This document shows positions 11,492-36,052 of a stretch of 36,052 nucleotides of DNA, in pieces. The translations under genes were made by a program, and so were the position numbers. The DNA is from a virus, in the IMG/VR virus record IMGVR_UViG_3300021197_000092, positions 1 through 36,052 of that record; one strand, written 5' to 3'. The notes beneath the pieces were generated by a model. It was not told where the DNA came from, did no database searches, and saw only the letters and a program-made list of their open reading frames with translations. The first letter of the stretch is position 1. Each line of letters opens with the position of its first letter.

Positions 11492-12329
11492 TCGCCACCT
11501 CCGTCAAGTAACGTGGCCCTGTAGAGTACAGGAAGGTACGTAGTTCAGGATAACAAGCATGTTTAAAGTGACAATAGGAACAGCCCATAGCCAGCTTCTT
11601 GTTGCCGGACTTTCCATCAGGAATTGTATCATGGCATAAAGGTGGCGGCTCTCTTTTCTGTACCATTTCTTTAACATAGATAATGCGTTCTTCTATGTCT
11701 TTCTTTAGAACCTCATAGACAGGAGCCTGCTCGTCCTCTAGGTCATACTTTAGGTAAGTCAAGTGACCATTGGCTTTGTCCATAGCCAGCCAGCCTACCT
11801 TTGTCTCACCCTCAGACCTAGCGTACCCTTTGATTTGATCTATGTACCCAAAGGGGTCATCAAATGCAAGTGTAGCATCTTTAAACTTCTTGAAGCCGTA
11901 GGTACTAGCAGACTTAACGTCAGTAACTATACCATCAATCTTACAGTCCATGCTACCTGAGATACCTTCTACAGTTGCCTGCGCTTGCTCATGTGTCACT
12001 GTATGGCCTGCTAGACGTACAAACAGTAGCAGCATCTCCTCAATCAAATGACCGTACATAAACTTCACAAGTGTATGTGGCTGCATCTTCTCCTTTGGCC
12101 CTACATTGTTGTAGTGATTCCAAAGGAACCTATCAGTCTTACCAATGTTGGACATGCGTAGCTTACGTGCATCAAACCTACCACGTTGGGTAAACTCTTT
12201 ACGCATAAGATCCTTGCAGGCTTCACCAAAATCATCTATGATTTGTTCAGCGTCCACTGAGCGATCAGGAGACTTGAACTTTACAAGATCATATATGTCA
12301 TCTATTAGTGTGTTAGTTGTTTTCATCAT
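11463..12329 (-). CDS. RecB/Cas4-like PD-(D/E)XK exonuclease with Cys cluster
   Basis: The product is 288 residues from ATG 12329, chosen because AAGGAAG lies just upstream; a TTG at 12344 would add five residues. The nuclease core shows G-H-L-I-E-E, then G-S-M-D-C-K-I-D-G-I-V-T-D-V-K-S-A (Asp and D-x-K) and Q-I-K-G-Y, the RecB-family Q-x3-Y motif. The C-terminus holds C-x2-C-x5-C, preceded by another Cys, which matches the iron-sulfur ligands of Cas4 and AddB nucleases. It sits where T7 has its gp6 exonuclease, so a role in end processing or host-DNA degradation is likely. Confidence 0.85.
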   Translation of the reverse strand: MMKTTNTLIDDIYDLVKFKSPDRSVDAEQIIDDFGEACKDLMRKEFTQRGRFDARKLRMSNIGKTDRFLWNHYNNVGPKEKMQPHTLVKFMYGHLIEEMLLLFVRLAGHTVTHEQAQATVEGISGSMDCKIDGIVTDVKSASTYGFKKFKDATLAFDDPFGYIDQIKGYARSEGETKVGWLAMDKANGHLTYLKYDLEDEQAPVYEVLKKDIEERIIYVKEMVQKREPPPLCHDTIPDGKSGNKKLAMGCSYCHFKHACYPELRTFLYSTGPRYLTEVANEPKVQEIT

Positions 12330-12894
12330 TATCTTCCTTAGCAAGAGCTTCGTTCAGTTTATAATCTATCAGTTTAACAAAGTAATCAAGATAGCCATTG
12401 TTAAACTGAGCATTCATAAACCACTCACCCTTACGTATGCAAAATTCTTCACATATTTTGTGAGCTATTTTTTCAGCTTCGCGCCTGTCTTCTACGTCTT
12501 TAGTATACACAAGTTTGTAGTCCCTGTGTGGGCTACCTGTCTGAAACTGCTTTAGCCTGTCCTCTGCGTCCACTGCCATGCCTACTTTAACCCAGTGTTT
12601 GTAGGAAGGGCTTATCATTATGTACACTTGTCCTTGCTTTGCAGTCTTGTAGTTGTCTAAAGACTCAAAGGCTGCATCCCCAAAGGACTTGTATTTTCCC
12701 GGCTTGTACAAGGGGTGTTTGAATGATATGTATTTACCATTGACATACATTCTAGTTTTATTCCAGTCTAATCTGCAATCATTACAAAGATATTTACGTC
12801 GGATAGCCATACTGCTTATCCAGTTTACTTCAATCTGTAAGGCTACTCCGCACCTTATACAATCTTTAGTGTGTGTCTGCCCAACTGCTTCCAA
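12313..12894 (-). CDS. T5orf172/GIY-YIG-type nuclease overlapping the polymerase end
   Basis: The C-terminal 110 residues match the T5orf172 branch of GIY-YIG: Q-V-Y-I-M, W-V-K-V-G-M-A, D-R-L-K-Q-F-Q-T-G-S-P-H, then E-A-E-K-I-A-H and G-E-W-F. An N-terminal Cys4 pair (C-I-R-C-G and C-N-D-C) looks like a zinc finger. The frame stays open to 13020, but that part runs inside the polymerase gene. I suggest the TTG at 12894, which has GGAG nine bases upstream and gives 193 residues, overlapping the polymerase by 29 bases. The true start is uncertain. It may be a homing-type or repair nuclease. Confidence 0.7.
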   Translation of the reverse strand: MEAVGQTHTKDCIRCGVALQIEVNWISSMAIRRKYLCNDCRLDWNKTRMYVNGKYISFKHPLYKPGKYKSFGDAAFESLDNYKTAKQGQVYIMISPSYKHWVKVGMAVDAEDRLKQFQTGSPHRDYKLVYTKDVEDRREAEKIAHKICEEFCIRKGEWFMNAQFNNGYLDYFVKLIDYKLNEALAKEDNDENN

Positions 12895-14581
12895 CCTTGT
12901 ACTCTCCTGTGAGCTTACAGTTGAGTCCAAGTTCAATTCCTGCTGCTTCCAAGCAGGAGACTGCGAGTCTTCCGTACTTGTCTGCTTGGTCTTCTCTAAC
13001 TTCTGCTTGTACTTCATCATGGATATTTCCTACAAAGTAATAATCTAACCCCCATAGTATAGCATACTCTTGTAGCAAACACAAGGCTTTTTTCATCACA
13101 ATTGCGCCCGCACTTTGGAGTAGGGTATTTAAGGCTGCATGTTCTGACCTGATATGTAACTGCCTACCATCTAGTCCATCGAGCCTACCGCATGCTGCCT
13201 TTTGTGCAACTCGTCCTTTAAGAGATGCAAATGCTGGGAGATTACACATAAATCGTTCTCTAAGCACTCTGCCATCTTTTGCGCCTCCTCCTGCCACTGT
13301 GCCAAGTTTAGAGTCTCCCGCTCCGTACAAGAGTGCATAGATGAAAGTCTTAGCCTGATCTCTTGATTCAAGCCCCGCAAGGCGCTGGTTAGCTGTATGG
13401 ATGTCTCCTCCAATGACTTCATTTGTATACTCCTTATCGTTCATATAATGGGCCAACATGCGTAGCTCTAATCCGCTGGCATCAAACCCTACAAGTTTAT
13501 ACCCAGTTCTGGCAGTCCAACACTGTCGGCATTCTTTGCCATACGGTGAGTATCCTGCCGGTACTTGAGCTAGATTAGGTTTAGAGTGTGTCATGCGTCC
13601 AGTGACGGCACCATTGGTGTTCACATATCCATGAACTCTATCTGTCTCTGGGTCAGCTCCATCTACCCATGATTGAACCTGTGCTACACGTTTTTGTAAC
13701 ATCAGGTACTCAGCGATCAACGCTGCCTGTGGTATGTCCTTGACCGTAGACAGTACTGCTTCATCTACTATAGGCTGACCTGTTGGTGTGTGCTTGCAAG
13801 GCTTCCATCCAAAGTCAATTAGGTACTCGCCTATCTGCTGCCGAGAGCCGAGGTTAAATGGCCTCAAGGCTTTACGCACAAAGGGAGTCCTATCTCCTGA
13901 CTTCTGTACCTTCTGGTATTCTTCATCAGTAAGTCCCACTTTAGACAAGCTGCCGTCCTTCTTGGTCTTTGGCACTACCTGTTTAACGTCCACCCACTTA
14001 GGCTTGAATACCTTGTGTACTTCGTCCTCCACTATTAGCTTGCGCTCTTTCAAGGTAGCCAGTAAGTCCATAGCATGTCGTAAGTCCAGTAGCCATCCAT
14101 TGCTTATCTGCTCCTGAATAATCCACTGTACTTCATGCTCAAGGTCAATAGACTCTTGCTTGAACTTACGTAGCTCTAGCTTTAGCTTGTTGTATGCCTT
14201 GGCTGTCACATGGACATCCTGCACACAGTAGTCCACCATCTCTCTTGACAGGCATGACCAATCATCATGGTTGCCTTTACCACCCCAGTTAGCTAACTTA
14301 TGGCCACCTTCACGCTGCGGATTGCCAAGTCTTGATAACACTAAAGTGTCCCTGACTCTACGCTTATCCACTGTGATGCCCCATAACTTGTCCAGCACTG
14401 GTAGGTCAAAGCCTATCAGGTTATGCCCTACTACCGAGAAGTCTCCTGAGAGAGCCTGAGAGAGGCTGTCACGGTCATAGTGCTCCTGTATCTCACCGTC
14501 CTGCATGGTCACTGCTACCCAGATGGTATCAGGATCAAGTCCATTAGTTTCTATGTCAAGGAACATGGGCTTATAGCTCAT
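12866..14581 (-). CDS. T7-like family A DNA polymerase
   Basis: The 571-residue replicative polymerase carries an intact 3'-5' exonuclease: F-L-D-I-E-T (Exo I, near residue 8), G-H-N-L-I-G-F-D (Exo II) and Y-C-V-Q-D-V (Exo III). Polymerase motif A is D-A-S-G-L-E-L-R (near 370), motif B is R-D-Q-A-K-T-F-I-Y-A-L-L-Y-G (near 410) and motif C is H-D-E-V (near 520). The residue equivalent to E. coli Pol I 762 is Tyr, as in T7; viral ecology work links Tyr/Phe here with lytic phages. ATG 14581 is chosen because AAGGAGG lies nine bases upstream; an ATG at 14590 would touch that site. Confidence 0.96.
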   Translation of the reverse strand: MSYKPMFLDIETNGLDPDTIWVAVTMQDGEIQEHYDRDSLSQALSGDFSVVGHNLIGFDLPVLDKLWGITVDKRRVRDTLVLSRLGNPQREGGHKLANWGGKGNHDDWSCLSREMVDYCVQDVHVTAKAYNKLKLELRKFKQESIDLEHEVQWIIQEQISNGWLLDLRHAMDLLATLKERKLIVEDEVHKVFKPKWVDVKQVVPKTKKDGSLSKVGLTDEEYQKVQKSGDRTPFVRKALRPFNLGSRQQIGEYLIDFGWKPCKHTPTGQPIVDEAVLSTVKDIPQAALIAEYLMLQKRVAQVQSWVDGADPETDRVHGYVNTNGAVTGRMTHSKPNLAQVPAGYSPYGKECRQCWTARTGYKLVGFDASGLELRMLAHYMNDKEYTNEVIGGDIHTANQRLAGLESRDQAKTFIYALLYGAGDSKLGTVAGGGAKDGRVLRERFMCNLPAFASLKGRVAQKAACGRLDGLDGRQLHIRSEHAALNTLLQSAGAIVMKKALCLLQEYAILWGLDYYFVGNIHDEVQAEVREDQADKYGRLAVSCLEAAGIELGLNCKLTGEYKVGSSWADTH

Positions 14582-16220
14582 TGACTGCATCCTCCTTTGG
14601 CTTGCTAGTCTCTGACATTCTACCAGTAAAGTTATCGTACTTCAGGTAACAACATGCACCAGTTAGCCCAGAGTAACGATTCTTGAGCACACGCACTGTA
14701 GTAGTGTTACGCCTCTCAGGGTTATCGTCCTGCTGGTCACGCTCCAAGCCTATCACCATATCAGACAACTGAGCGATAGCCTGTGAACCTCTTAATTCAC
14801 TTAGGCTAATCTGCCCACCATCCTCATGCGCTTTGCCTTGGGTACGCTTTAGGTGTGACACAAGGAACAAGCCTACGCCTAGCTCCTGCACCAGTGACCT
14901 TAGCTTGGTCATAATAGCGTCGATAGCCTTGCGTTCATCGCCATTATCCTGTGCGGATACTACGATAGACAGGTGGTCTAGGATGATCCACTTGCAGTCC
15001 AAAGCCTTAGCCATGTACCTGACCCTAGCTAGTAGATTGTCCTCACTAGTGCTACCCCAGTGATCGAACAGATAGAACCTGCCGGTGCCTAGGGTGTCTT
15101 CCCAGTAAGGGAACGCTAGTTCTGGATCAAGGTCTTCCTCAAGGTGCAAGGGACAGTCTGCTTCTACTGACATGATTCCCAGTGCAGTCCTAGCAACATC
15201 TTCCTCCAATGCTAGGATTCCAATGTTGTCTTCAGTTGCCCTGAGCAAGTAGTGCTCTAACTCCCGTACCATCTGGCTCTTGCCCATGCCCGACCCTGAC
15301 GTTATCGTCACTAGCTCGTATGGTCTAAATCCCTTCGTGTAGGTGTTGAGTCCCTGCCAAGGATAAGGTATTGACTTTACCTTGATCTTGTTAGTTAAGG
15401 CATCCCATGTATCGCTACCTTGGATTATGCCGTCAGGTTGATACACCTTAGCATTCCACCATGCACTTGTGAAGTCTCTAACCTTGTTAGCTACTAACAT
15501 CTCGTTAGCGTCCTTCAAGGGCAGCTTGACTATCTTTAGCTTGCTCGGTGAGAACAAGTCCTTGATGTCGTCCACGGCCTGCTGGCCTGCCTTGTCAGTG
15601 TCAAAGCAAACAACCACGTTATCGTAGCCTTCAAGAAAGTCTAGGTTCTCTTTTATCTCTTTAGCCGCTGATGATGCACCATTACGCAATGAAACTACGT
15701 CCCACTTGCGCTCGAACATTTCAGACACGCTGAGAGCGTCTACCTCGCCCTCTGTGATGGTTATGTACTTACCCTTACCCTTGCACGTTTGCTGACCAAA
15801 TAGACCTACATTAGTGGTCATGTCGCCTGTCGCGTGGAAGTCTTTAGTCTTCACACGGCGAACTTTAGTGGCCTTTAGTTCGTCGCTGTCAGTGCTGTAG
15901 TACGGGTAAATGTGTTTTGCTATCTCACCGGCTGCATTGTACTCCACCATGACGTTGTATTTTCTACACGTCTCTTGGCTAAGTCTTCTGTCCGGTATTG
16001 CTGCTATGACTCCCGATGCTGTCATGTCTTCTAATGGCCTCCTTGGTTGGGGCTGTAGTGTTACTACATTGCCATTTGATTGTTCGTGATGATTACACCC
16101 TGATGCAAAGCAATGCGCCGACCCGCTGCTATAGCGGGCCAGTGCATCCCTAGAGCCACACTTAGGGCATGGCTCATGCCTTACAAAGGGATCATCTTTC
16201 TGGTGCTTATAGGTCTGCAT
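14571..16220 (-). CDS. T7 gp4-like primase-helicase
   Basis: The 549-residue bifunctional replication protein unwinds DNA and lays RNA primers. A zinc-binding domain has C18, C21, C37 and C42 (C-P-K-C-G ... H-C-F-A-S-G-C). The TOPRIM primase fold shows I-T-E-G-E-V-D-A-L and C-F-D-T-D-K-A-G. The RecA-like helicase has Walker A G-S-G-M-G-K-S near residue 313, a Walker B with W-I-I-L-D-H, then S-H-L-K-R, and E-L-R-G-S-Q-A-I-A. The length is close to T7 gp4 (566). It overlaps the ssDNA-binding gene by 14 bases and the polymerase by 11 bases. Confidence 0.96.
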   Translation of the reverse strand: MQTYKHQKDDPFVRHEPCPKCGSRDALARYSSGSAHCFASGCNHHEQSNGNVVTLQPQPRRPLEDMTASGVIAAIPDRRLSQETCRKYNVMVEYNAAGEIAKHIYPYYSTDSDELKATKVRRVKTKDFHATGDMTTNVGLFGQQTCKGKGKYITITEGEVDALSVSEMFERKWDVVSLRNGASSAAKEIKENLDFLEGYDNVVVCFDTDKAGQQAVDDIKDLFSPSKLKIVKLPLKDANEMLVANKVRDFTSAWWNAKVYQPDGIIQGSDTWDALTNKIKVKSIPYPWQGLNTYTKGFRPYELVTITSGSGMGKSQMVRELEHYLLRATEDNIGILALEEDVARTALGIMSVEADCPLHLEEDLDPELAFPYWEDTLGTGRFYLFDHWGSTSEDNLLARVRYMAKALDCKWIILDHLSIVVSAQDNGDERKAIDAIMTKLRSLVQELGVGLFLVSHLKRTQGKAHEDGGQISLSELRGSQAIAQLSDMVIGLERDQQDDNPERRNTTTVRVLKNRYSGLTGACCYLKYDNFTGRMSETSKPKEDAVNEL

Positions 16221-16578
16221 CTATCCCACTGCTGTCTTCGGCCACTTCTACCACCCTGATAGCATTCAGGTAGGTGGGTGTACCGTGTACAGGGTGTGGA
16301 GTACCTGTCTTGTAGCTAAGGCGCACCACAGAACCTCTAGGAATGTTACCCACAAAGGCTTGATCGTTAGCATCAATGACCTTGACGTTGAACTTACTAG
16401 CAAACTTGCGTTGCTTGTCTCCATTGTAGTCCTTCAGCTTTACACCTTGTTCAGACAAGATCTGTGCATTGTCATCGTCCAAGGTTACAGTTAGGGTATA
16501 CCGTCCTGTGTCCTGTCCGTTATACACCTCTGTGCTGTCCAAGTGAGCGAATGCTGCTTTGCCACTTACTACTGCCAT
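16207..16578 (-). CDS. Probable ssDNA-binding protein
   Basis: The product is 123 residues with the alternating beta pattern of an OB fold (for example R-Y-T-L-T-V-T-L-D-D-D, and V-R-L-S-Y) and an acidic C-terminus (E-D-S-S-G-I-D-A-D-L), the usual protein-interaction tail of phage ssDNA-binding proteins. It precedes primase-helicase and polymerase, as gp2.5 does in T7. AGAGGT is a good ribosome site. The upstream leader, about 100 bases with a promoter at 16677-16703, makes this the first gene of the replication operon. Assignment rests on context plus fold pattern. Confidence 0.75.
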   Translation of the reverse strand: MAVVSGKAAFAHLDSTEVYNGQDTGRYTLTVTLDDDNAQILSEQGVKLKDYNGDKQRKFASKFNVKVIDANDQAFVGNIPRGSVVRLSYKTGTPHPVHGTPTYLNAIRVVEVAEDSSGIDADL

Positions 16579-16608: not shown

Positions 16609-16676
16609 ACTAAAGAAAACTAAAGATATATCATAATGATTAACATAATGTTTACCTTTGTTCTCTTTAGAGTACT

Positions 16677-17838: not shown

Positions 17839-18048
17839 TTACTTTCCTGTTTTAGTTTTTTTTCGCCAGTCGCTATGCCTTATCACATAGCGTACTCTGT
17901 CTCTACTGATTCCCAGTTTCTCTGCTATTTGCTGATATGTCAACCTTTCAATCAGATATAACGGTTTTATTCTAGTTTCCTCAAAAGATCTTTGTGGTTG
18001 CTGGAATATCTCCAACCGCTTATCTTGTGCTTTTATGGCCTCAATCAT
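17839..18048 (-). CDS. Small helix-turn-helix DNA-binding protein
   Basis: The product is 69 residues from ATG 18048. Residues 36-57 read L-T-Y-Q-Q-I-A-E-K-L-G-I-S-R-D-R-V-R-Y-V, a textbook helix-turn-helix of the sigma-region-4/LuxR or Hin type, with a Lys/Arg-rich tail. The frame is open further upstream to 18237, but that part is the shadow of a membrane protein gene; ATG 18048 overlaps that gene's stop as ATGA, the rule in this operon. It is the best candidate for a phage transcription regulator. Confidence 0.75.
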   Translation of the reverse strand: MIEAIKAQDKRLEIFQQPQRSFEETRIKPLYLIERLTYQQIAEKLGISRDRVRYVIRHSDWRKKTKTGK

Positions 18049-18200
18049 GAGGACAACCCAAGAAGCATAGACCATATTAAATAAAACCCTAAAATAGCTG
18101 TAATCGCTACGCTGGCCCTGTTTAACACTGAAAAAATCAAATCCTCTTGCTGTTGTTCTTCGCGTTCCTCTCGTTTTGATTGTGTGAAGTCTTTTCTCAT
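18045..18200 (-). CDS. Small membrane protein with one transmembrane helix
   Basis: The product is 51 residues. Residues 1-20 are highly charged (K-R-E-E-R-E-E-Q-Q-Q-E-D) and 31-49 are hydrophobic (V-A-I-T-A-I-L-G-F-Y-L-I-W-S-M-L-L-G-L), a clear membrane segment at the C-terminus. Both its start and its stop share ATGA overlaps with the neighbours, strong support for this frame over the overlapping longer frame. In the early arm it may modify the host membrane or block superinfection; this is inference. Confidence 0.7.
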   Translation of the reverse strand: MRKDFTQSKREEREEQQQEDLIFSVLNRASVAITAILGFYLIWSMLLGLSS

Positions 18201-18442
18201 GCTTTAAAGTCTCCCTTTGTGAATCCATAGCGACCAAGAGAAGACACTAAGTGATTGGCCAGTATTTGCTCCTCGGTAAGCTCTGCCCTTGAGTTTCTGT
18301 CTGCGTCTGAGTGGGCTATCTGTAACCGATATTCTGGGCCTTTGTCTGTGTAGATCCTCACATTGTAAAAGGCTCCCCCCGGTGTGGTAACTGTTTTAAC
18401 CACTGCTAAATCTCCAAGGCTGTTAGTTGCTATTGCTCTCAC
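18197..18442 (-). CDS. Small early protein, unknown function
   Basis: The product is 81 residues. The first half is beta-rich with a D-L-A-V-V-K-T-V / F-Y-N-V-R-I-Y / Y-R-L-Q-I-A strand pattern, the second half is helical (L-T-E-E-Q-I-L-A-N-H-L). This suggests a compact alpha/beta fold. No family is recognised. It lies 5 bases after the preceding gene and shares an ATGA overlap with the membrane gene. Confidence 0.7.
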   Translation of the reverse strand: MRAIATNSLGDLAVVKTVTTPGGAFYNVRIYTDKGPEYRLQIAHSDADRNSRAELTEEQILANHLVSSLGRYGFTKGDFKA

Positions 18443-18447
18443 TGGTT

Positions 18448-18687
18448 TTATGCCTCCCCAACTAGGTTGTGCAGGTCATTTTGAGGCACTAACTCCACAC
18501 AATCAGAGACAGCCGCTAGCCACTTGTTAAGGTGCTTGCTGGTAGTTACTGACCATTTTTTCTCCGTGCGTATGTAGCGCCCTGATGGGAGCATTGCTGC
18601 AACTGGTGTTTCATAGCTAAAGAATACAACTGAGCCACAAGGCAGGCTAAGTTCTGTCTGGTTTGATGCTATCTGTCGTAGTTTCAT
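18448..18687 (-). CDS. Conserved small phage protein (T-P-V-A-A / T-T-S-K-H type)
   Basis: The product is 79 residues. It shows F-F-S-Y-E-T-P-V-A-A, then R-T-E-K-K-W-S-V-T-T-S-K-H-L-N-K-W-L, a pattern I recognise from small uncharacterised proteins in many phage early regions (the DUF8033-like group, from memory). Function is unknown. The gene has an unusually long leader (180 bases) containing folded elements, unlike every other gene in this operon. Confidence 0.75.
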   Translation of the reverse strand: MKLRQIASNQTELSLPCGSVVFFSYETPVAAMLPSGRYIRTEKKWSVTTSKHLNKWLAAVSDCVELVPQNDLHNLVGEA

Positions 18688-18735
18688 TGGTTCTATCCTT
18701 CTTTTGTTGTGTTGTAAAATCTAAGTAAGCAGTTT

Positions 18736-18773
18736 ACCGCCATGCTCAGGGCGCTTGTGTGACGCTTTGCGGT
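18736..18773 (-). other. Hairpin in the leader of the 79-aa gene
   Basis: ACCGC (18736-18740) pairs with GCGGT (18769-18773), and an inner GCG/CGC pair (18751-18753 with 18763-18765) sits inside. The hairpin lies about 50 bases before the ATG at 18687 on the transcribed strand. It may be part of a longer structured leader together with 18808-18857. Confidence 0.35.
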
Positions 18774-18807
18774 TATCCATCCTTCAATTAGTCAGGTAGA
18801 GCCGCGA

Positions 18808-18857
18808 GTCTGGACTATCTCAGCCAAAGGCTACGCCATCGAGGGCGCATACCAGAC
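18808..18857 (-). ncRNA. Possible three-way-junction RNA in the early leader
   Basis: On the minus-strand transcript GTCTGG and CCAGAC (18857-18852 and 18813-18808) close a 50-nt element. Inside are two hairpins: TGCGCC/GGCGTA (6 bp with one G-U, 6-nt loop) and AGCC/GGCT (3-nt loop). The region has no open frame. I recognise no known riboswitch or ribozyme. It is non-coding and foldable, but conservation is untested. Confidence 0.4.
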
Positions 18858-18868
18858 GAACCACACAA

Positions 18869-18919
18869 TAATGCTGCCACTGATGACCCCTGTATGCAAG
18901 GGCCATTGATGGGGCACTA
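18869..18919 (-). repeat. Folded 51-nt element, copy A
   Basis: This copy begins 4 bases after the stop of the 80-aa gene (minus strand). Ends TAGTGC and GCATTA pair (6 bp with one G-U). The inner stem AATGGCCC/GGGTCATC has seven pairs including one G-U, with an outermost A-C mismatch, and encloses the loop TTGCATACAG. It is 44/51 identical to copy B (19202-19252). The stem differences include a compensatory change. No U run follows, so it is not a classic terminator. Confidence 0.75.
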
Positions 18920-18923
18920 TCGT

Positions 18924-19166
18924 CTATGCCTCCGTTGCGTGTTCTAGGATCTCAGAAACCCTGACACAGTGAAGCCATGATGTCACTATGTCACCCAGTA
19001 GGCTGGCCGGTATGTTGTCCAGCAGGCTCTCCAATTCTCTTGTGATGGCTTCCTCTGTCAGGTTGTCATAGTCCCTGAGCATGTCCAGAGTGCCGTCGTT
19101 GTCCAGCCACAGAGCAGCCTGCCATGTCTCAAAGTTGCACCATCCGTTATATGTTGTATCGCTCAT
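18924..19166 (-). CDS. Conserved small phage protein (Y-N-G-W-x-N-x-E-T-W type)
   Basis: The product is 80 residues from ATG 19166, chosen because AAGAGGA lies about 10 bases upstream; a longer reading from 19232 would cross repeat B. The N-terminus T-Y-N-G-W-C-N-F-E-T-W-Q-A-A-L-W-L-D-N-D is the hallmark of a widespread uncharacterised phage and plasmid family (DUF7249-like, from memory). The remainder is helical and acidic. Function is unknown. It is flanked on both sides by copies of the 51-nt folded element. Confidence 0.8.
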   Translation of the reverse strand: MSDTTYNGWCNFETWQAALWLDNDGTLDMLRDYDNLTEEAITRELESLLDNIPASLLGDIVTSWLHCVRVSEILEHATEA

Positions 19167-19201
19167 TTTGTTAGATCCTCTTTGGTTGTGTTGTGATTGG
19201 C

Positions 19202-19252
19202 TAATGCTGCCACTGATAGCCCCTGTATGCAAGGGCTATCTATAGAGCACTA
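19202..19252 (-). repeat. Folded 51-nt element, copy B
   Basis: This copy begins 2 bases after the stop of the 55-aa gene. It has outer stem TAGTGC/GCATTA and a perfect 8-bp inner stem GATAGCCC/GGGCTATC (19233-19240 with 19215-19222), with the same 10-nt loop as copy A. The 3' end is 35 bases before the next ATG. The position just after a stop codon matches copy A. Confidence 0.75.
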
Positions 19253-19254
19253 GA

Positions 19255-19422
19255 TTATAACGCTGCAAACTCTTTTGCAATGGCTCTGGCTTCAGAGTCT
19301 GACATGCCATTGGGGTTTAAACAAACCTTCATTGGGTGTTTGATGATGTCTAAGGCTTCGCGTACCTTGGCAACATATGTAGGGTCTAGGGCTGCTACTC
19401 TTTTACGTTCGTTTAGTTTCAT
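19255..19422 (-). CDS. First gene of the early arm, 55-aa basic protein
   Basis: The ATG at 19422 opens 55 codons: a basic start (M-K-L-N-E-R-K-R-V), then two amphipathic helices, with A-R-A-I-A-K-E-F-A-A-L at the end. No family is recognised. The ribosome site is weak (GAGAC about 10 bases away). It is supported by the intact frame, its position at the head of the operon, and the folded element that follows its stop. Confidence 0.6.
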   Translation of the reverse strand: MKLNERKRVAALDPTYVAKVREALDIIKHPMKVCLNPNGMSDSEARAIAKEFAAL

Positions 19423-19584: not shown

Positions 19585-19631
19585 GTCCTCTCAAGCTAAC
19601 CATTAGCCTACGTGGGGTATACCCATAGGCC

Positions 19632-19753
19632 CCTTAGTCTAACTGTTGTACTCTATTGCGCACCTAAGTCTAACCGTTACGCTATGGTGCGCCTAAGTCT
19701 AACTGTTGTAGTCTGTGGTGCGCCTAAGTCTAACTGTTGGGGCATGGGGCTAA
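19632..19753 (+). repeat. Four-copy iteron-like direct repeats
   Basis: Four imperfect copies of a roughly 31-bp unit, with core CCTAAGTCTAACTGTTG, start at 19632, 19663, 19692 and 19723 (spacing 31, 29 and 31). Copies differ by a few bases, and a TGGTGCG or TTGCGCA segment ends the unit. The spacing of about three helical turns suggests protein-binding sites, as in iteron origins or regulator arrays. It lies between the two arms. Confidence 0.7.
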
Positions 19754-19883
19754 CAGATCGGGTACGGGGGGCACCTGTGGCTACTGATGATTATTGTAGT
19801 AGGCACTCCAGTACTTAAAAGTGAAAATTAGAAAACTACAGTTAATTAATAAAAAAGTAAGTGTTTACTAACTTAAGTAACCT

Positions 19884-19923: not shown

Positions 19924-19944
19924 GAAAATAACAGTAAAAAGTAC

Positions 19945-19973
19945 TTGACAAATACAAAAAAGTATGCTATAAT
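19945..19973 (+). promoter_or_regulatory. Perfect extended -10 sigma70-type promoter for the rightward arm
   Basis: TTGACA (19945-19950), a 17-base spacer, and TATAAT (19968-19973) with TG one base before the -10. It drives the AT-hook, endopeptidase and terminase genes. The 29-bp core matches the promoter at 25791-25819 except for one spacer base. Confidence 0.85.
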
Positions 19974-20010
19974 AAATAGGTATCTTAAAGAATGTTAAGG
20001 TAAATACATT

Positions 20011-25317: not shown

Positions 25318-25782
25318 ATGATTATTGAGTCTGTTGCAGCAGCCAGTGCTATCCTAAGTTCCATAAATGGTTTAATCCAGAAGGCTAATGAAACTGGGTC
25401 TGGTGTGCAACAGCTTATGGGAACTATCTCTGATTTTGGAGAAGCTCTAAATAACTTTGAACTTGAAAGAAAGGCAAGTACCTTTAAACCTCTTAGTCAA
25501 AGTGAAATTTTAAAGCTCACCATGATTAAGAAAAGCTATGAAAGGCATTGGAAATCTGTATCTGATCTTCTTGCTATGGTAGATCCAGAAATGTTAGATA
25601 GCTTTAGGAAAGCAAAAATTGAGCAGGAGCATGCTCGTAAAAAACATTTACTGATGCTAGCTAAGAAGCAGAAAGAAAGAGATAAGCTAATGCAACAAAT
25701 AGCTATAGGTAGTCTTGTATTCATAATAGGAGCCGCTATTGCAATAGGTGCATTATCTATAGTAATACAAACATTTAGTTAA
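25318..25782 (+). CDS. Coiled-coil membrane protein, unknown function
   Basis: The product is 154 residues. An amphipathic N-terminal half is followed by a long charged helix (about 95-124, rich in Lys, Glu, His and Gln) and a C-terminal hydrophobic segment at about 128-150, predicted to span the membrane. Proteins of this layout, with a coil then one C-terminal helix, occur near the portal of marine phages. Spanin or ejection roles are both possible. It is the last gene before the second promoter. Confidence 0.65.
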   Translation: MIIESVAAASAILSSINGLIQKANETGSGVQQLMGTISDFGEALNNFELERKASTFKPLSQSEILKLTMIKKSYERHWKSVSDLLAMVDPEMLDSFRKAKIEQEHARKKHLLMLAKKQKERDKLMQQIAIGSLVFIIGAAIAIGALSIVIQTFS

Positions 25783-25790
25783 AAAAACGC

Positions 25791-25819
25791 TTGACAAATA
25801 CAAAAAAGTATGATATAAT
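25791..25819 (+). promoter_or_regulatory. Second perfect extended -10 sigma70-type promoter
   Basis: TTGACA (25791-25796), a 17-base spacer, TATAAT (25814-25819) and TG before the -10. It differs from the promoter at 19945-19973 only at the base before the -10. A repeated palindrome TACGTA (25823-25828 and 25832-25837) overlaps the expected start of transcription. It starts the capsid block. Confidence 0.85.
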
Positions 25820-25869
25820 ATATACGTACTTTACGTACATTTAGTATTCTTTAACAAAGGTAAAATACA

Positions 25870-28647: not shown

Positions 28648-31155
28648 ATGGCTGTAAATCTTGATTTTAGTAACTTTAATGTTGACTTGTCTGGTCTAGG
28701 CGGCTTTAACTTTGATCCTTCTAGCTTGTCTTATCTTATGCAAGACACAACGGCTGATCCTAGTCCATTAGACATACGTAAGGCAGAGATTGCTGCGGAA
28801 GTAGCTGCTAAAGCAAGCCAACAGCCTGTACAATCTGTAGGACAAACTGCTGATTTATCTACTTACTATGACGCACTACGTCAAGGAACCACAGTATCTG
28901 ATGTAAATACAGTGGGTCAAAGTTACAATCAAGCACTTGCTGAAGCATTAGCAAATCAAGGAATTGTAGACACAGGTTATGCAGAAGGTGGTGGTGTAGC
29001 TGATAAACCAACCGTTAGTTCTTTTACTACGCCTGATTATGCTCCTAGAGAGCTAGGCGAGTTTCAAGGTAATCTTTCCGCACATACGTCAAGTTCTTTA
29101 GCTCAAATTAAAGAGTTCCAATCTCGACTTGAGCCTTTAATGGCTCCAGAGATAGCACGTTTACAGACAGTAGAAAAGTTAGACTATAGAGATGCTGTTG
29201 AACAGGCATATATACAGAACCCTGAAATTAAAGCACTGTATAACGCATACGATGTAAAACCTTTTAGAACTACTGAAGATGGCTCTATTTACCTATATGA
29301 CCCGTTTACTTTTGGTGAGATTAGAACACTAGAAGTAAAAGATAGAGATTTACAAAAAGCTCTAAAAGCAGTTTCTCAAATTGGCGCAAGCGTTGTTACA
29401 GGTGGTGCAGGAGCTGCTCTAGGACTTACAGGTGCTGCTGCTGCTGCAACAAGTGCCGCTGTATCAGGATTTACTACGGCTGCGTATGGTGGAGATAAAG
29501 ACGCTATCCTTAACTCTGTGTTAATAGCTGGCGGTACTTCTTTACTTAAAGGTGCAGTTGACAAAGTTAAGGAAGGTGTAGAGAACGTAGCTGAAGAAAC
29601 TTTACAGGCTGTTAGTCCAGAACTAAGTGTTGAGTTACCAGAGATAGTTCCTGCTGATGTTGTTGACACTGTTACTGGTACACTAACTGGTGCAGATAAT
29701 TTATCCGCTTCTTATGATGTTTTAGATAGAGTTATAGCAGACATTGGCGTAGATCGTCTTAATGCTATGTCCAATACTGATTTGTATAATTACCTAAGCA
29801 GTGCTGGTGATATAGCAGGTATCAATACTTTAGGTTTAACTCCATTTCAAAAAACTGTAGGTTTTATGAATGCAGCTAGACCTTTAAGACAAGATTTAAT
29901 TAGAGAAGGCATAACTAGTACTGGCCCATCATTTGCACCTGATATTTTTGGAGGTACTGCAACTGAAACTTTGCCATTTGAGTATACTCCTAGTAGAGTA
30001 GATTTTACTCTTCCCGATACTCCAATTCCAGAGCAAAGACCAACACCAGTAAGACCACAGCCTCCAACACAAACACCCGGAGGTGGTGGAGGAGCGTCTA
30101 GTGCAGCAGCATCAGCACCGGCAACGTCTGTAGTAGCTCCTTCTGCCCCTAGTGCAACTATAACACCCACTGTGCTACCTCCTATGTTAACCGCACCGGG
30201 ATCAGTTACTAATGCACTTTTAACTAATACATTATCTGCACTAGCATCATCAAGTTTTAGTGCTTCTAGTGCTCCTAGTGCTCCTAGTGCTTCTAGTGCT
30301 CCTAGTACTACTAGTGCGCCACGGCCTACAGTAGCTCCTCCAGTTACACCCGTGGCTACTACTGCTCCTACTCCTGAACCTACACCTGTAACAACTACAG
30401 AGCCTACAGACATCTTTGAGGACACTACTGCTGAAGATACTACTGCACAAGTAGAAGCGGAAGCGGAAGCACAGGCAGAGGCTCAAAGGCAAGCAGAGGC
30501 TCAAAGGCAAGCAGAGGCTCAAAGGCAAGCAGAGGCTCAAAGGCAAGCAGAGGCTCAAAGGCAAGCAGAGGCTCAAAGGCAAGCAGAGGCTCAAAGGCAA
30601 GCAGCTAGAGAGGCAGAGGCTGCTCGTTTAGCTGAAGAAGCTAGAAAAGCAGCGGAAGCTAGAGCAGCCGCAGAAGCTAAAGCAGCAGCAGAACAAGAAG
30701 CTATTGCTCAAGCAGAAGCTAGGGCAGTAGCAGCGGAAGCACGTTTAGCAGAACAACAAGCACAAGCTCAAGCAGATGCAGCCGCTGCTGAAGCTGCTAG
30801 GGCAGCAGATGCTCAAGCTCAAGCAGATGCTTTAGCAGAAGCTGTAGCGGCAGGAGAAGCTAGGTACGGAGAAGCTGTAGCGGCAGGAGAAGCTCTTGGT
30901 GAAGCAAAATATGGCGAAGGGCTGGGCACAGGCAGAGGCCAAGGCGCTGGAGCAGGGCTAGGCGCAGGATTAGGCTTAGGTCTTCTTGCTGGCATCGGTG
31001 GAGGCGCTGGAGGAACTGGAGGATACACACCACCAGAGTTTGAAGACTATCAGTTTAGAAAGACATATCAAGCCCCTGAGTTATTAGAGTTAGCACCACA
31101 ATATCAAAGTTATCAACCTCCTGCACTACAAGGGTTATTTAAAGGTTTAGTATGA
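28648..31155 (+). CDS. Large Ala/Gln-rich repeat protein, probable virion component
   Basis: The product is 835 residues with no recognised family. Order: folded N-terminal region (1-240), glycine-zipper-like hydrophobic segment (about 245-290), region to about 470, Pro/Thr/Ser-rich low-complexity stretch (about 470-590) with S-A-P repeats, long Ala/Glu/Gln coiled coil (about 600-740) containing seven perfect A-E-A-Q-R-Q units, a Gly-rich segment (about 760-800), and a Tyr/Pro tail. It sits between the holin and tail tubular protein A, so a virion, tail or ejection role is likely. The Pro-rich part could be a flexible tether. The 3' end overlaps the next gene by 4 bases. Confidence 0.7.
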   Translation: MAVNLDFSNFNVDLSGLGGFNFDPSSLSYLMQDTTADPSPLDIRKAEIAAEVAAKASQQPVQSVGQTADLSTYYDALRQGTTVSDVNTVGQSYNQALAEALANQGIVDTGYAEGGGVADKPTVSSFTTPDYAPRELGEFQGNLSAHTSSSLAQIKEFQSRLEPLMAPEIARLQTVEKLDYRDAVEQAYIQNPEIKALYNAYDVKPFRTTEDGSIYLYDPFTFGEIRTLEVKDRDLQKALKAVSQIGASVVTGGAGAALGLTGAAAAATSAAVSGFTTAAYGGDKDAILNSVLIAGGTSLLKGAVDKVKEGVENVAEETLQAVSPELSVELPEIVPADVVDTVTGTLTGADNLSASYDVLDRVIADIGVDRLNAMSNTDLYNYLSSAGDIAGINTLGLTPFQKTVGFMNAARPLRQDLIREGITSTGPSFAPDIFGGTATETLPFEYTPSRVDFTLPDTPIPEQRPTPVRPQPPTQTPGGGGGASSAAASAPATSVVAPSAPSATITPTVLPPMLTAPGSVTNALLTNTLSALASSSFSASSAPSAPSASSAPSTTSAPRPTVAPPVTPVATTAPTPEPTPVTTTEPTDIFEDTTAEDTTAQVEAEAEAQAEAQRQAEAQRQAEAQRQAEAQRQAEAQRQAEAQRQAEAQRQAAREAEAARLAEEARKAAEARAAAEAKAAAEQEAIAQAEARAVAAEARLAEQQAQAQADAAAAEAARAADAQAQADALAEAVAAGEARYGEAVAAGEALGEAKYGEGLGTGRGQGAGAGLGAGLGLGLLAGIGGGAGGTGGYTPPEFEDYQFRKTYQAPELLELAPQYQSYQPPALQGLFKGLV
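30475..30600 (+). repeat. Seven perfect 18-bp tandem repeats
   Basis: The unit gcagaggctcaaaggcaa occurs seven times without a single base change and encodes seven copies of A-E-A-Q-R-Q in the coiled coil of the 835-aa protein. Identity at synonymous sites means recent expansion. Copy number is likely to vary, by slippage or assembly error. A less exact 9-bp repeat, encoding S-A-P, lies at about 30260-30320. Confidence 0.9.
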
Positions 31156-33310: not shown

Positions 33311-36052
33311 CAAATTATTCAAAGACAACTAACTTTACAGCTAAAGATTCTTTAGTATCTGGAGATGCTAATAAGATTGTTAAAGGCTCTGAGATTGATG
33401 TAGAGTTTGACAATATTGCAACAGCGTCAGCAACTAAAGCAAACATAGCTAGTCCTGTATTTACAGGTGTTGTTTCTTTTCCTGATGGCTCTGCCGGTGA
33501 TCCTTCAATTACAAATACTGGAGACACCAATACTGGACTGTTTTTTAGTGCAGCAGATACTCTTTCATTTACCGCTGCTGGAACCGCACAGTTTACTATG
33601 GGCGATGGAGTAATTGCTCCTGTCACTGACGCAGACGTAGACTTAGGTACATCTTCACTAGAATTTAAAGATGCTTATTTTGATGGGACAGTACACACTG
33701 ATGCTATTAACTTAAACGGTACAGCGATTACAAGCACGGCTGCTGAACTTAACATTCTTGACGGTGTAACGTCTACCGCAGCAGAAATTAATCTTCTTGA
33801 TGGCGTTACAGCCACTACAACAGAACTTAATTACACTGACACTGGTGCTGCTGTAGGTGTAGTAGTAGCTAGTAAAGTAGTTACAGCAGATGCTAATAAA
33901 GATGTAGCCAGCTTCCGTAACATTACCCTAACCGGGGAACTAGATGCAGGATCTCTTGACATTTCTGGAGATGCTGATATTGATGGTACGTTAGAGACAG
34001 ATGCTCTATCTATCAATGGCACAGCCGTAACTAGTACAGCAGCAGAGCTTAACATCTTAGATGGTGTAACAAGCACCGCAGCAGAACTAAATATTTTAGA
34101 TGGTGTCACAGCAACAGCAGCAGAACTAAATATTTTAGATGGTGTAACAAGCACCGCAGCAGAGCTTAACATCTTGGATGGTAAAGCATTCCTTGATGAA
34201 GACGATATGTCTTCCAACAGTGCTACAGGTATTGCTTCGCAACAGTCCATCAAAGCCTATGTAGACGCACAAATTACTGCTGAAGACTTAGACTTCCAAG
34301 CAGACTCTGGTGGCGCACTGAGCATAGACCTAGACTCAGAGACTTTTACGTTTACTGGAGGCACTGGTGTAGACACAAGCGGCTCTGGTAACGCTGTGAC
34401 CTTTGCTATTGATAGTACAGTAGCAACGCTTACTGGCTCACAGACTCTTACGAATAAATCATTAACTGCACCTACGCTAACAGGTACGGCTGTAGTGGCT
34501 TCTCTGGACATCTCAGGCGATATAGATGTTGATGGCACCACCAACCTTGATGTTGTGGACATTGATGGTGCTTTAACTCAAGACGGTGGGGCAGTATTTA
34601 ACGAAGCAAGTGCTGACGTAGACTTCCGAGTTGAATCAAACGACAACGCTAATATGCTGTTTGTGGATGGTGGGAATAATAGGGTCGGTATTGGTAGTAG
34701 TTCGCCTAGTGCTAGGCTAGAGGTAGACGGTGCTGCTTCAACTGATGGAATACTAATTATTAACCCGCTATCAGGCTCATTTTACAATGCAAAAGTAGAG
34801 TTTAGACGCGACAGCACAGCAGGCGGGGCTAAGATTCAAACAGAGCGTAATTCGGCTGGTGGTGTAGGCTTATCCTTTAATGTAACAGCAGACAATACAG
34901 CAGAAACAAACGGCACTTATAGTGAGGCTATGACGGTTGATAGGTCAGGCAATGTAATAATTGGATCTACAGGTGGTACACTTCAAACAGCTACAGCAGG
35001 AACAAGTAACTTCAGAGCAGGTGTCAACGCAGGTAACTCCATCACCTCTGGTGGCAACTACAACGTGGTTGTGGGCGATGAAGCGGGTACGGCTCTGACT
35101 ACGGGTGACAGTAACATTGCAATAGGTTATGAGGCGCTCAAGACTGAAGATGGGAATGGTGCAAATATTGCGATTGGGCAAGCTGCTCTTAAAGTTCTAA
35201 ATGCAGGTATAGACGGCAACAACGTGGCGATAGGTCATACTGCTGGCACTGCAATGACCACGGGAGTTAACAACACCATCATCGGTGGTCTTGCTGGCGA
35301 TGCTTTAACGTCTGGCAATAGTAATGTCGCTATTGGTAAATCCGCGCTTTCAGCAGACACGCTAGGCGATAGAAATGTAGCTATTGGTTTTGAAGCATTA
35401 CTCTCACAAAACTTTACCACTACCACTGACTCTTTAAATACGGCTGTTGGACATAGCGCGGGTAAAGCAATCACCACGGGAGTTCAGAACACCCTAATTG
35501 GTGGTGTTGCAGGGGACGCTCTTACTTCATCAGACGGAAACACAGCCGTAGGTTATGCTGCTCTCAGTGCAGCAACTACCGCAGATTTAAACACGGCAAT
35601 CGGTCATCGAGCCTTAACAACTAACATTCTTAGTGATCGAAATGTAGCCTTGGGATATGCCGCTCTTAGTACACACAACACTGCTACGAGCGTCGATTCT
35701 TACAACATAGGGATAGGCTATAACGCAGGTGGGGCAGTCACCACGGGAGTTGAGAACACTCTCATTGGTGGTCTTGCGGGTGATGCGCTTACATCAGGCT
35801 CTGGAAATGTTGTAGTAGGTAAGTCTGCGCTTACAGCAGATACGTTAGGTAAAGATAATGTTGCTATCGGTCAGAATGCTTTGTTTTCTCAAAACTTTAC
35901 AACCGCTACATCGGCTTACAACGTAGCTGTTGGTAAAAATGCTGGCCTTTCAATCACCACGGGAATCCAGAACACCCTTATCGGCGGTCTTGCTGGTGAT
36001 GCTCTCACAGACGCTGATTTTAATGTGGCAATAGGTATATCTACTTTAAGTT
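33307..36052 (+). CDS. Tail fibre, N-terminal and central part (continues at 1-1031)
   Basis: ATG 33307 opens a frame that runs off the edge. Joined across the ends it gives 1258 residues. The N-terminus (M-T-N-Y-S-K-T-T-N-F-T-A-K-D) suits attachment to the tail. It is followed by T-A-A-E-L-N-I-L-D-G-V-T-S repeats (four at 34030-34185), beta-structured segments, and then repeats of N-T/V-A-I-G type with a 72-residue superrepeat. The C-terminal S74 domain at 1-1031 completes it. It likely determines host range. Confidence 0.88.
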   Translation, partial: MTNYSKTTNFTAKDSLVSGDANKIVKGSEIDVEFDNIATASATKANIASPVFTGVVSFPDGSAGDPSITNTGDTNTGLFFSAADTLSFTAAGTAQFTMGDGVIAPVTDADVDLGTSSLEFKDAYFDGTVHTDAINLNGTAITSTAAELNILDGVTSTAAEINLLDGVTATTTELNYTDTGAAVGVVVASKVVTADANKDVASFRNITLTGELDAGSLDISGDADIDGTLETDALSINGTAVTSTAAELNILDGVTSTAAELNILDGVTATAAELNILDGVTSTAAELNILDGKAFLDEDDMSSNSATGIASQQSIKAYVDAQITAEDLDFQADSGGALSIDLDSETFTFTGGTGVDTSGSGNAVTFAIDSTVATLTGSQTLTNKSLTAPTLTGTAVVASLDISGDIDVDGTTNLDVVDIDGALTQDGGAVFNEASADVDFRVESNDNANMLFVDGGNNRVGIGSSSPSARLEVDGAASTDGILIINPLSGSFYNAKVEFRRDSTAGGAKIQTERNSAGGVGLSFNVTADNTAETNGTYSEAMTVDRSGNVIIGSTGGTLQTATAGTSNFRAGVNAGNSITSGGNYNVVVGDEAGTALTTGDSNIAIGYEALKTEDGNGANIAIGQAALKVLNAGIDGNNVAIGHTAGTAMTTGVNNTIIGGLAGDALTSGNSNVAIGKSALSADTLGDRNVAIGFEALLSQNFTTTTDSLNTAVGHSAGKAITTGVQNTLIGGVAGDALTSSDGNTAVGYAALSAATTADLNTAIGHRALTTNILSDRNVALGYAALSTHNTATSVDSYNIGIGYNAGGAVTTGVENTLIGGLAGDALTSGSGNVVVGKSALTADTLGKDNVAIGQNALFSQNFTTATSAYNVAVGKNAGLSITTGIQNTLIGGLAGDALTDADFNVAIGISTLS
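34030..34185 (+). repeat. Four 39-bp repeats in the fibre
   Basis: In-frame units at 34030, 34069, 34108 and 34147, each 39 bases, encode T-S-T-A-A-E-L-N-I-L-D-G-V with few changes. Related but more diverged copies lie at about 33730-33830. Such repeats are typical of phage fibre shafts. Codon differences between copies show older duplication than in the 18-bp repeats. Confidence 0.8.
35257..36052 (+). repeat. 216-bp superrepeat of the fibre, continuing at the left end
   Basis: The motif accacggg recurs at 35257, 35473, 35740, 35956, then 120 and 336 at the left end. Steps are 216, 267, 216, 216 (across the join) and 216 bases, so the unit is 72 codons with one insertion of 51 bases. Units encode T-T-G-V-x-N-T-L-I-G-G-L-A-G-D-A. 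The unbroken period at the join supports circular closure. Confidence 0.85.

Follow-up and report, generated by a model that had tools for sequence, protein, structure and literature searches.

An RNA hairpin family at the junctions of exchanged early genes in uncultured phages, with a possible role in RNase III-type processing

Integron cassettes are small genes that each carry a folded attC site and are swapped as units. HK022 put and lambda nut occur as one or two sites near early promoters and are bound by RNA polymerase or N protein. The promoter early stem-loops (PeSLs) of T4-type phages combine an early promoter with a terminator function. These intergenic elements accompany the modular shuffling of small early genes, to judge from the titles of Arbiol 2010 and Comeau 2014 cited in PMC4503421. 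For Cluster K mycobacteriophages, the sections of PMC3203893 that deal with ESAS describe 17-bp inverted repeats with a variable spacer located 5' of start-associated motifs (SAS); these occur at many non-structural genes, differ in repeat consensus between subclusters and are given as of unknown function, and RNA covariation or a T7-like geometry does not figure in those sections (PMC3203893). In T7 early mRNA, finally, cleavage by RNase III is proven for R1.1, a site that contains an internal loop (PMC6121014, PMC8708148) and maps to nucleotide 5887 (PMC8708148).

The sequence described here (the window, 36,052 nt) is a 36-kb uncultured tailed-phage record that encodes a T7-type DNA polymerase and primase-helicase together with a ribonucleotide reductase and endonuclease I, and its early and replication block runs leftward. 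The DNA polymerase is 48% identical to those of the Pelagibacter phages HTVC103P, HTVC104P and HTVC115P, while the capsid protein shows 25-33% identity to those of cyanobacterial podoviruses and HTVC011P; judged by sequence, the closest named relatives are remote. Related 124-nt repeats lie at the two ends of the record (1-421 and 35219-36041), like one repeat-rich gene that has been split; a circularly permuted or a circular genome is possible. On the plus strand, two 52-nt copies that are 85% identical (19936-19987 and 25782-25833) contain a rightward sigma-70-type promoter; the first reads TTGACA-17-TATAAT with a TG extension and matches the consensus at 12/12 positions. The divergent intergenic region at 19612-19760, which may be a replication origin or have a regulatory role, contains repeated CTAAGTCTAACTGTTG units; L004, L010, L041 and L066 have similar GC-rich repeat hairpins at the corresponding place. 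A GIY-YIG-like (T5orf172/MUG113) ORF on the minus strand (12313-13020), possibly a homing endonuclease, overlaps the boundary of the DNA polymerase gene. In addition, a 132-aa ORF of the early block (17839-18237, minus strand) has a weak match to sigma-70 region 4/HTH, and an 835-aa ORF of the structural block contains in-frame 18-nt tandem repeats (6 aa) at 30436-30616.

Two hairpins around an early gene

The original prediction had singled out two 51-nt copies of a folded RNA element on the minus strand that flank an 80-aa gene and start 2-4 bases past stop codons. Both the copies and their placement were confirmed: copy 2 begins 2 nt past the TAA of a 55-aa gene, copy 1 begins 4 nt past the TAG of the 80-aa gene, and the two share 44/51 positions (86%). 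The features of the region are as follows.

19255-19422, minus strand: upstream 55-aa cassette gene (family 18)
19202-19252, minus strand: copy 2 of the RNA hairpin element, the one transcribed first, with a CAUA tetraloop on an 11-bp upper stem and below this a 1x1 mismatch, 4 bp, a bulge and a 7-bp lower stem
19167-19201, minus strand: unstructured A/C-rich leader with a Shine-Dalgarno-like AGAGGA, giving 35 nt from hairpin to ATG
18924-19166, minus strand: 80-aa cassette gene between both copies (DUF7249, phrog_871; family 7)
18869-18919, minus strand: copy 1 of the RNA hairpin element, the one transcribed second, with a tetraloop on a 10-bp upper stem and below this a 2x2 internal loop, 4 bp, a 1x2 loop and a 6-bp lower stem
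18688-18868, minus strand: 181-nt spacer that separates copy 1 from the gene after it and has the usual leader, ACAACACAACAAAAGAAGGATAGAACC-ATG, at its end
18448-18687, minus strand: 79-aa gene (phrog_5643), 3' of the 181-nt spacer
16610-16670, minus strand: third hairpin of unrelated sequence, 61 nt (-18.4 kcal/mol, z -5.28)

All structures given here are thermodynamic predictions. On the minus strand, copy 2 folds at -28.5 kcal/mol (z = -5.30) and copy 1 at -24.6 kcal/mol (z = -3.75), values equalled by 0/200 shuffles in either case, while the plus-strand folds are much weaker (-18.7 and -15.6 kcal/mol, respectively). One detail of the original prediction needs a slight correction, since the proposed TTGCATACAG loop is a CAUA tetraloop that a UUG/CAG helix closes. 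The compensatory change from G-C to A-U and the change from G-C to G-U between the copies are real. The 181-nt spacer behind copy 1 is possibly a decayed cassette. The best-matching named record for the 79-aa protein that follows it is AG-345-L05, labelled Kyanoviridae. In relatives, homologues of this phrog_5643 gene have upstream of them either the element or a hairpin of the same shape with a different sequence.

A dispersed family under selection on the sense RNA

Beyond the window, the hairpin family recurs in more than 30 related uncultured phage contigs. Searching for the exact apical core returned 7 further true elements and a scan with the outer bases (TAGTGC-N24-40-GTGGCAGCATTA) about 30. 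The covariance model R1 added further ones, among them pairs spaced about 260-330 nt apart around one small gene, and two further pattern scans yielded more variants, most of which scored 41-75 bits with the model R2. The window copies scored 78.3 bits (copy 2) and 74.6 bits (copy 1) with R1, whose training set includes both. Chance is ruled out by this recurrence together with the excess of the 17-nt core, which with at most 3 mismatches is seen twice in the window against 0.05 expected. Describing the element as duplicated was therefore correct as to the two copies but understated, because both belong to a dispersed family that sits at the junctions of shuffled small-gene cassettes.

A near-identity search of cultured phages gave no match, and within the collection searched the clade is thus without a cultured member. 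None of the Rfam 15 covariance models reached its family threshold (best E 6.8 for SNORD66, which is not credible), and no named family had been recognised initially either; a tRNA identity was considered and rejected. Viral pattern matches of odd length (for example L015, L022, L028-L030, L033-L035 and L044) were dropped, as they lacked the element fold or had a coding-like context. The 50 pattern matches in cellular genomes were of chance quality and random spacing, with R1 scores of 14-26 bits despite preselection by the same pattern. L050 has no element; its replication and early region comes from another lineage, with an ssDNA-binding protein that is 36% identical. A loose genome-wide hairpin scan gave thousands of matches and was uninformative, and a stricter one served only to propose further candidates. 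The latter found 249 similar hairpins across the loci scanned, 179 of them within long ORFs; because generic hairpins are this common, shape alone is not specific.

In A2, an alignment of 31 distinct sequences that is biased towards the structure because it was made with a model of that structure, 97.9% of cells are standard pairs and 10/20 pairs are changed on both sides, leaving about 2% of cells broken. The same result was obtained with A1, a MAFFT alignment made without structure, in which 99.0% of cells are standard pairs and 7/20 pairs are changed on both sides. The covariation in A2 was reached by 0/500 shuffles and that in A1 by none either, and both values were lost when the partners were slid. 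Variants of the lower stem that keep their pairing include UAGUGC/GCAUUA, UAGUG/CACUA, AAGUAAUC/GAAUUAUUU and UAAUUGUA/UACAAUUA. In the main class, the lower stem and bulge retain much of their sequence (TAGTGC, GTGGCAGCATTA), while the apical stem and loop vary freely.

The structure is also specific to one strand. The window copies score 75-78 bits in sense against 24 bits in antisense orientation, and 39/41 elements are more stable as sense RNA, since G-U wobbles, conserved ones among them, form on the sense strand (142/860 pairs). Strand-specific selection on the RNA, as had been suggested from the two copies, is thus well supported. The search of related contigs with a covariance model brought both more elements and more covariation. 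Absence of the element from relatives and stem breaks without compensation, the two outcomes that would have counted against the original prediction, were checked for and did not overturn it, broken stems being confined to about 2% of cells.

Cassette junctions and the same shape from other sequences

In 32/51 rows the element opens with the stop codon of the preceding gene, which makes up its first three bases; in the remaining rows the stop lies mostly 1-11 nt ahead. The rows outnumber the independent elements, because some contigs overlap or are near-identical. The next ATG usually follows about 23-35 nt 3' of the element, after leaders that read GCCAAACACAACA...GAAGGA or similar. Longer distances occur where a further two small hairpins intervene (about 59-68 nt) and behind window copy 1, with its 181-nt spacer. 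The usual layout is small gene, hairpin, about 30 unstructured bases, ribosome-binding site and next ATG, always in the same orientation relative to the genes. The extra hairpins, GCAGCGAAGCTGC and GGTAGCTCTGCTACC, lie between element and leader in L026, L036, L014, L041 and L047.

Across these junctions, gene families combine many-to-many, with 16 of them on the upstream side and 14 on the downstream side. The 55-aa family of the window, for instance, precedes a different gene (family 2) in L039, and the family of the 80-aa gene comes after a different gene (family 6) in L013. We compared 27 pairs with a common upstream gene and 31 with a common downstream gene: identity was high on the common side and across element and leader, and at background level on the other side. 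Whole units come and go as well. One 288-nt gene-plus-hairpin unit, placed between the same two flanking genes, sets L017 and L018 apart, and another such unit does so for L178 and L177. Most cassette proteins have no match in Pfam.

In the sister clade, the same place is taken by hairpins of unrelated sequence. Ahead of the phrog_5643 gene, relatives at 55-60% protein identity have GTTGACTAATC...AGTGAGTCAAC (class 2), and a relative at 51% has GTTTAACAATGGGCATCT...; both fold to the plan of the element, with about 11 bp and a tetraloop, a small mismatch and a lower stem. Class 2 was seen in 31 contigs, where it lies a few nt from the upstream stop and 24-49 nt ahead of the starts of several different genes. 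The upper stem of class 2 covaries (6/20 pairs), whereas no variation was seen in the lower stem within this sample. L185, L189 and L202 have an insert of their own in this class, GCACCGCATAGGTGCGG. In all tabulated representatives, a tetraloop caps an upper stem of 10-14 bp, beneath which lies a 1x1, 2x2 or 2x1 mismatch. Because a short AU/AGU motif beside the mismatch is common to classes 1 and 2, the two may distantly share ancestry.

The third hairpin of the window ends 31 nt ahead of the ATG of a 123-aa gp2.5-like ssDNA-binding gene (16207-16578). In the window and close relatives (L004, L010, L017, L038, L049, L061, L119 and others) it has 24-26 bp and lies 30-31 nt ahead of the gene, and in more distant relatives the ssDNA-binding gene has different hairpins. 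Since both this hairpin and the sister-clade class are unrelated to the element in sequence, it is shape and position that are kept. A cousin hairpin, CTTACTGGTAGCCYTTAG....GTTAGCAGTAAG, with 9 bp, a mismatch, 9 bp and a tetraloop, is found shortly 5' of the ATG of a 137-aa gene family at four loci (L002 9314, L014 2667, L016 1839 and L020 2043).

Possible functions of the element

The most likely reading, to which we give about an even chance (roughly 0.5), is that the element is an intercistronic RNase III-type processing site in the leftward early transcript, by analogy with T7 early mRNA. The T7 sites R0.3, R0.5, R1, R1.1 and R1.3, folded here at positions that we take from the classic map, have a 9-13-bp upper stem, a 3-5-nt loop, a small internal loop and a lower stem. 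Like the element, they are repeated between early genes, near the upstream stop and with an ATG a short way on. The closest is R1.3, whose 13 bp, 1x1 mismatch and 4 bp are nearly those of the L039 element. The element has a stem of about 20-24 bp (16-24 bp overall among the tabulated representatives) with a small mismatch about one helical turn under what is mostly a tetraloop, so that it agrees with T7-type sites in stem and mismatch geometry, in its intercistronic position ahead of a start and in having its structure on the transcribed strand. It differs from them in lying where genes are shuffled and in having 1x1 or 2x2 mismatches in place of mostly larger, asymmetric internal loops, and there is no sequence match. 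No T7-like RNA polymerase was found among the window proteins scanned. The T7 analogy, one of three options originally put forward, is the best of them on anatomy, and cleavage is predicted from it.

According to this model, host RNase III would cut near the mismatch, leaving a stable hairpin on the 3' end of the upstream message, and the downstream message would then begin with a short leader, unstructured and containing a Shine-Dalgarno site. Even uncut, the hairpin would still insulate the initiation region from upstream sequence, and each cassette gene would become an independent translation unit. Because each gene would carry its own hairpin and leader, genes could be inserted, lost or swapped without disturbing their neighbours. 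The shared hairpin and leader would moreover supply short homology for the recombination that joins cassettes, a process suggested by the observed pattern of identity. Placement and the conservation of shape are the basis for a more modest claim, in which the hairpin belongs to a portable expression unit and insulates the leader that follows it.

Such insulation could also be the whole function: an uncut hairpin would block 3'-to-5' exonucleases and shield the next leader from upstream RNA or terminating ribosomes. This reading, which we regard as possible but rather unlikely, fits the position directly past stop codons and ahead of an A/C-rich leader with a Shine-Dalgarno site, the retention of shape as sequence changes, and the extra hairpins that sometimes stand between element and leader as if more structure were tolerated or useful; however, it leaves unexplained the mismatch about 10-14 bp under the loop that is kept in nearly all versions. 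That mismatch and its flanking wobbles might instead be read by a phage or host regulator, such as a translational repressor, or an antitermination factor or RNA polymerase as at nut or put. In favour of such a protein-binding RNA are the strongly conserved sequence in the lower part of main-class elements and the recurrence of AU/AGU beside the mismatch in classes 1 and 2. Against the RNase III reading, the lower stem and bulge of the main class keep more sequence than that enzyme needs, although recent spread by recombination would also explain it. We judge protein binding unlikely, as the apical stem and loop vary freely and only shape survives in distant relatives, and as the elements lie at several gene junctions rather than at one promoter-proximal site. 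With regard to put and nut, the elements lie in the early region, at several junctions, and may act in antitermination. No obvious RNA-binding candidate was found among the proteins scanned, many of which have no assigned function. The prediction of antitermination or specific protein binding is likewise weakened by the same shape, from unrelated sequence, at the same place in the sister clade.

The exact coincidence of the elements with the boundaries of exchanged cassettes, and the exchange of units as in integrons, would suit a recombination site folded as DNA, similar to attC, with RNA folding incidental. We find this very improbable, because the element has its structure on the RNA sense strand, where pairing uses G-U wobbles, and keeps a constant orientation to the genes; the core GTTRRRY/RYYYAAC is absent, the element ends reading TAGTGC and GCATTA, and the window proteins scanned yielded neither an integrase nor any other tyrosine recombinase. 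That recombination merely spread one intergenic sequence whose fold has no function is hardly credible: recombination clearly moves element sequences, but compensatory changes in upper and lower stems and the re-creation of the geometry from unrelated sequence argue against a relic. Equally little probability goes to an intrinsic terminator or a promoter-carrying stem-loop of the T4 type. The hairpin does follow a stop codon, and small early genes are shuffled in both cases, yet the U tract is absent, as had been stated from the start, and so is any terminator-like site; no promoter-like match lies in or beside either element, and the number of such matches in the region is that expected by chance. 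ESAS are comparable to the element in placement but, as far as the cited sections go, adjoin a conserved 13-bp motif at the start codon and differ from the element in sequence and host group; the 13-bp SAS motif GGGATAGGAGCCC is absent before the start codons here.

The element family, its re-creation in the sister clade and its role at cassette junctions were not found in Rfam or in the open-licence papers searched; the sequence family and the cassette-boundary role appear to be new, while the mechanism would be of a known kind. We tentatively propose, at somewhat less than even confidence, that hypervariable early genes of these phages come in a standardised plug-in format, each bringing along a hairpin, a leader and a ribosome-binding site. 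The first codon of the hairpin would be the stop of the preceding gene, hairpin and leader would serve both as RNA insulator and as homology for swapping, and the format would have arisen more than once in sister clades, each time with this geometry but from unrelated sequence. If true, this would join two subjects that are mostly treated separately, the independent expression of co-transcribed small early genes and the shuffling of those genes. The models R1 and R2 provide a signature for the junctions of fast-changing early genes, many of them probably directed against the host, in uncultured marine phages, and the set of hairpins with the same shape and different sequences offers a comparative test of what RNase III-like processing sites need.
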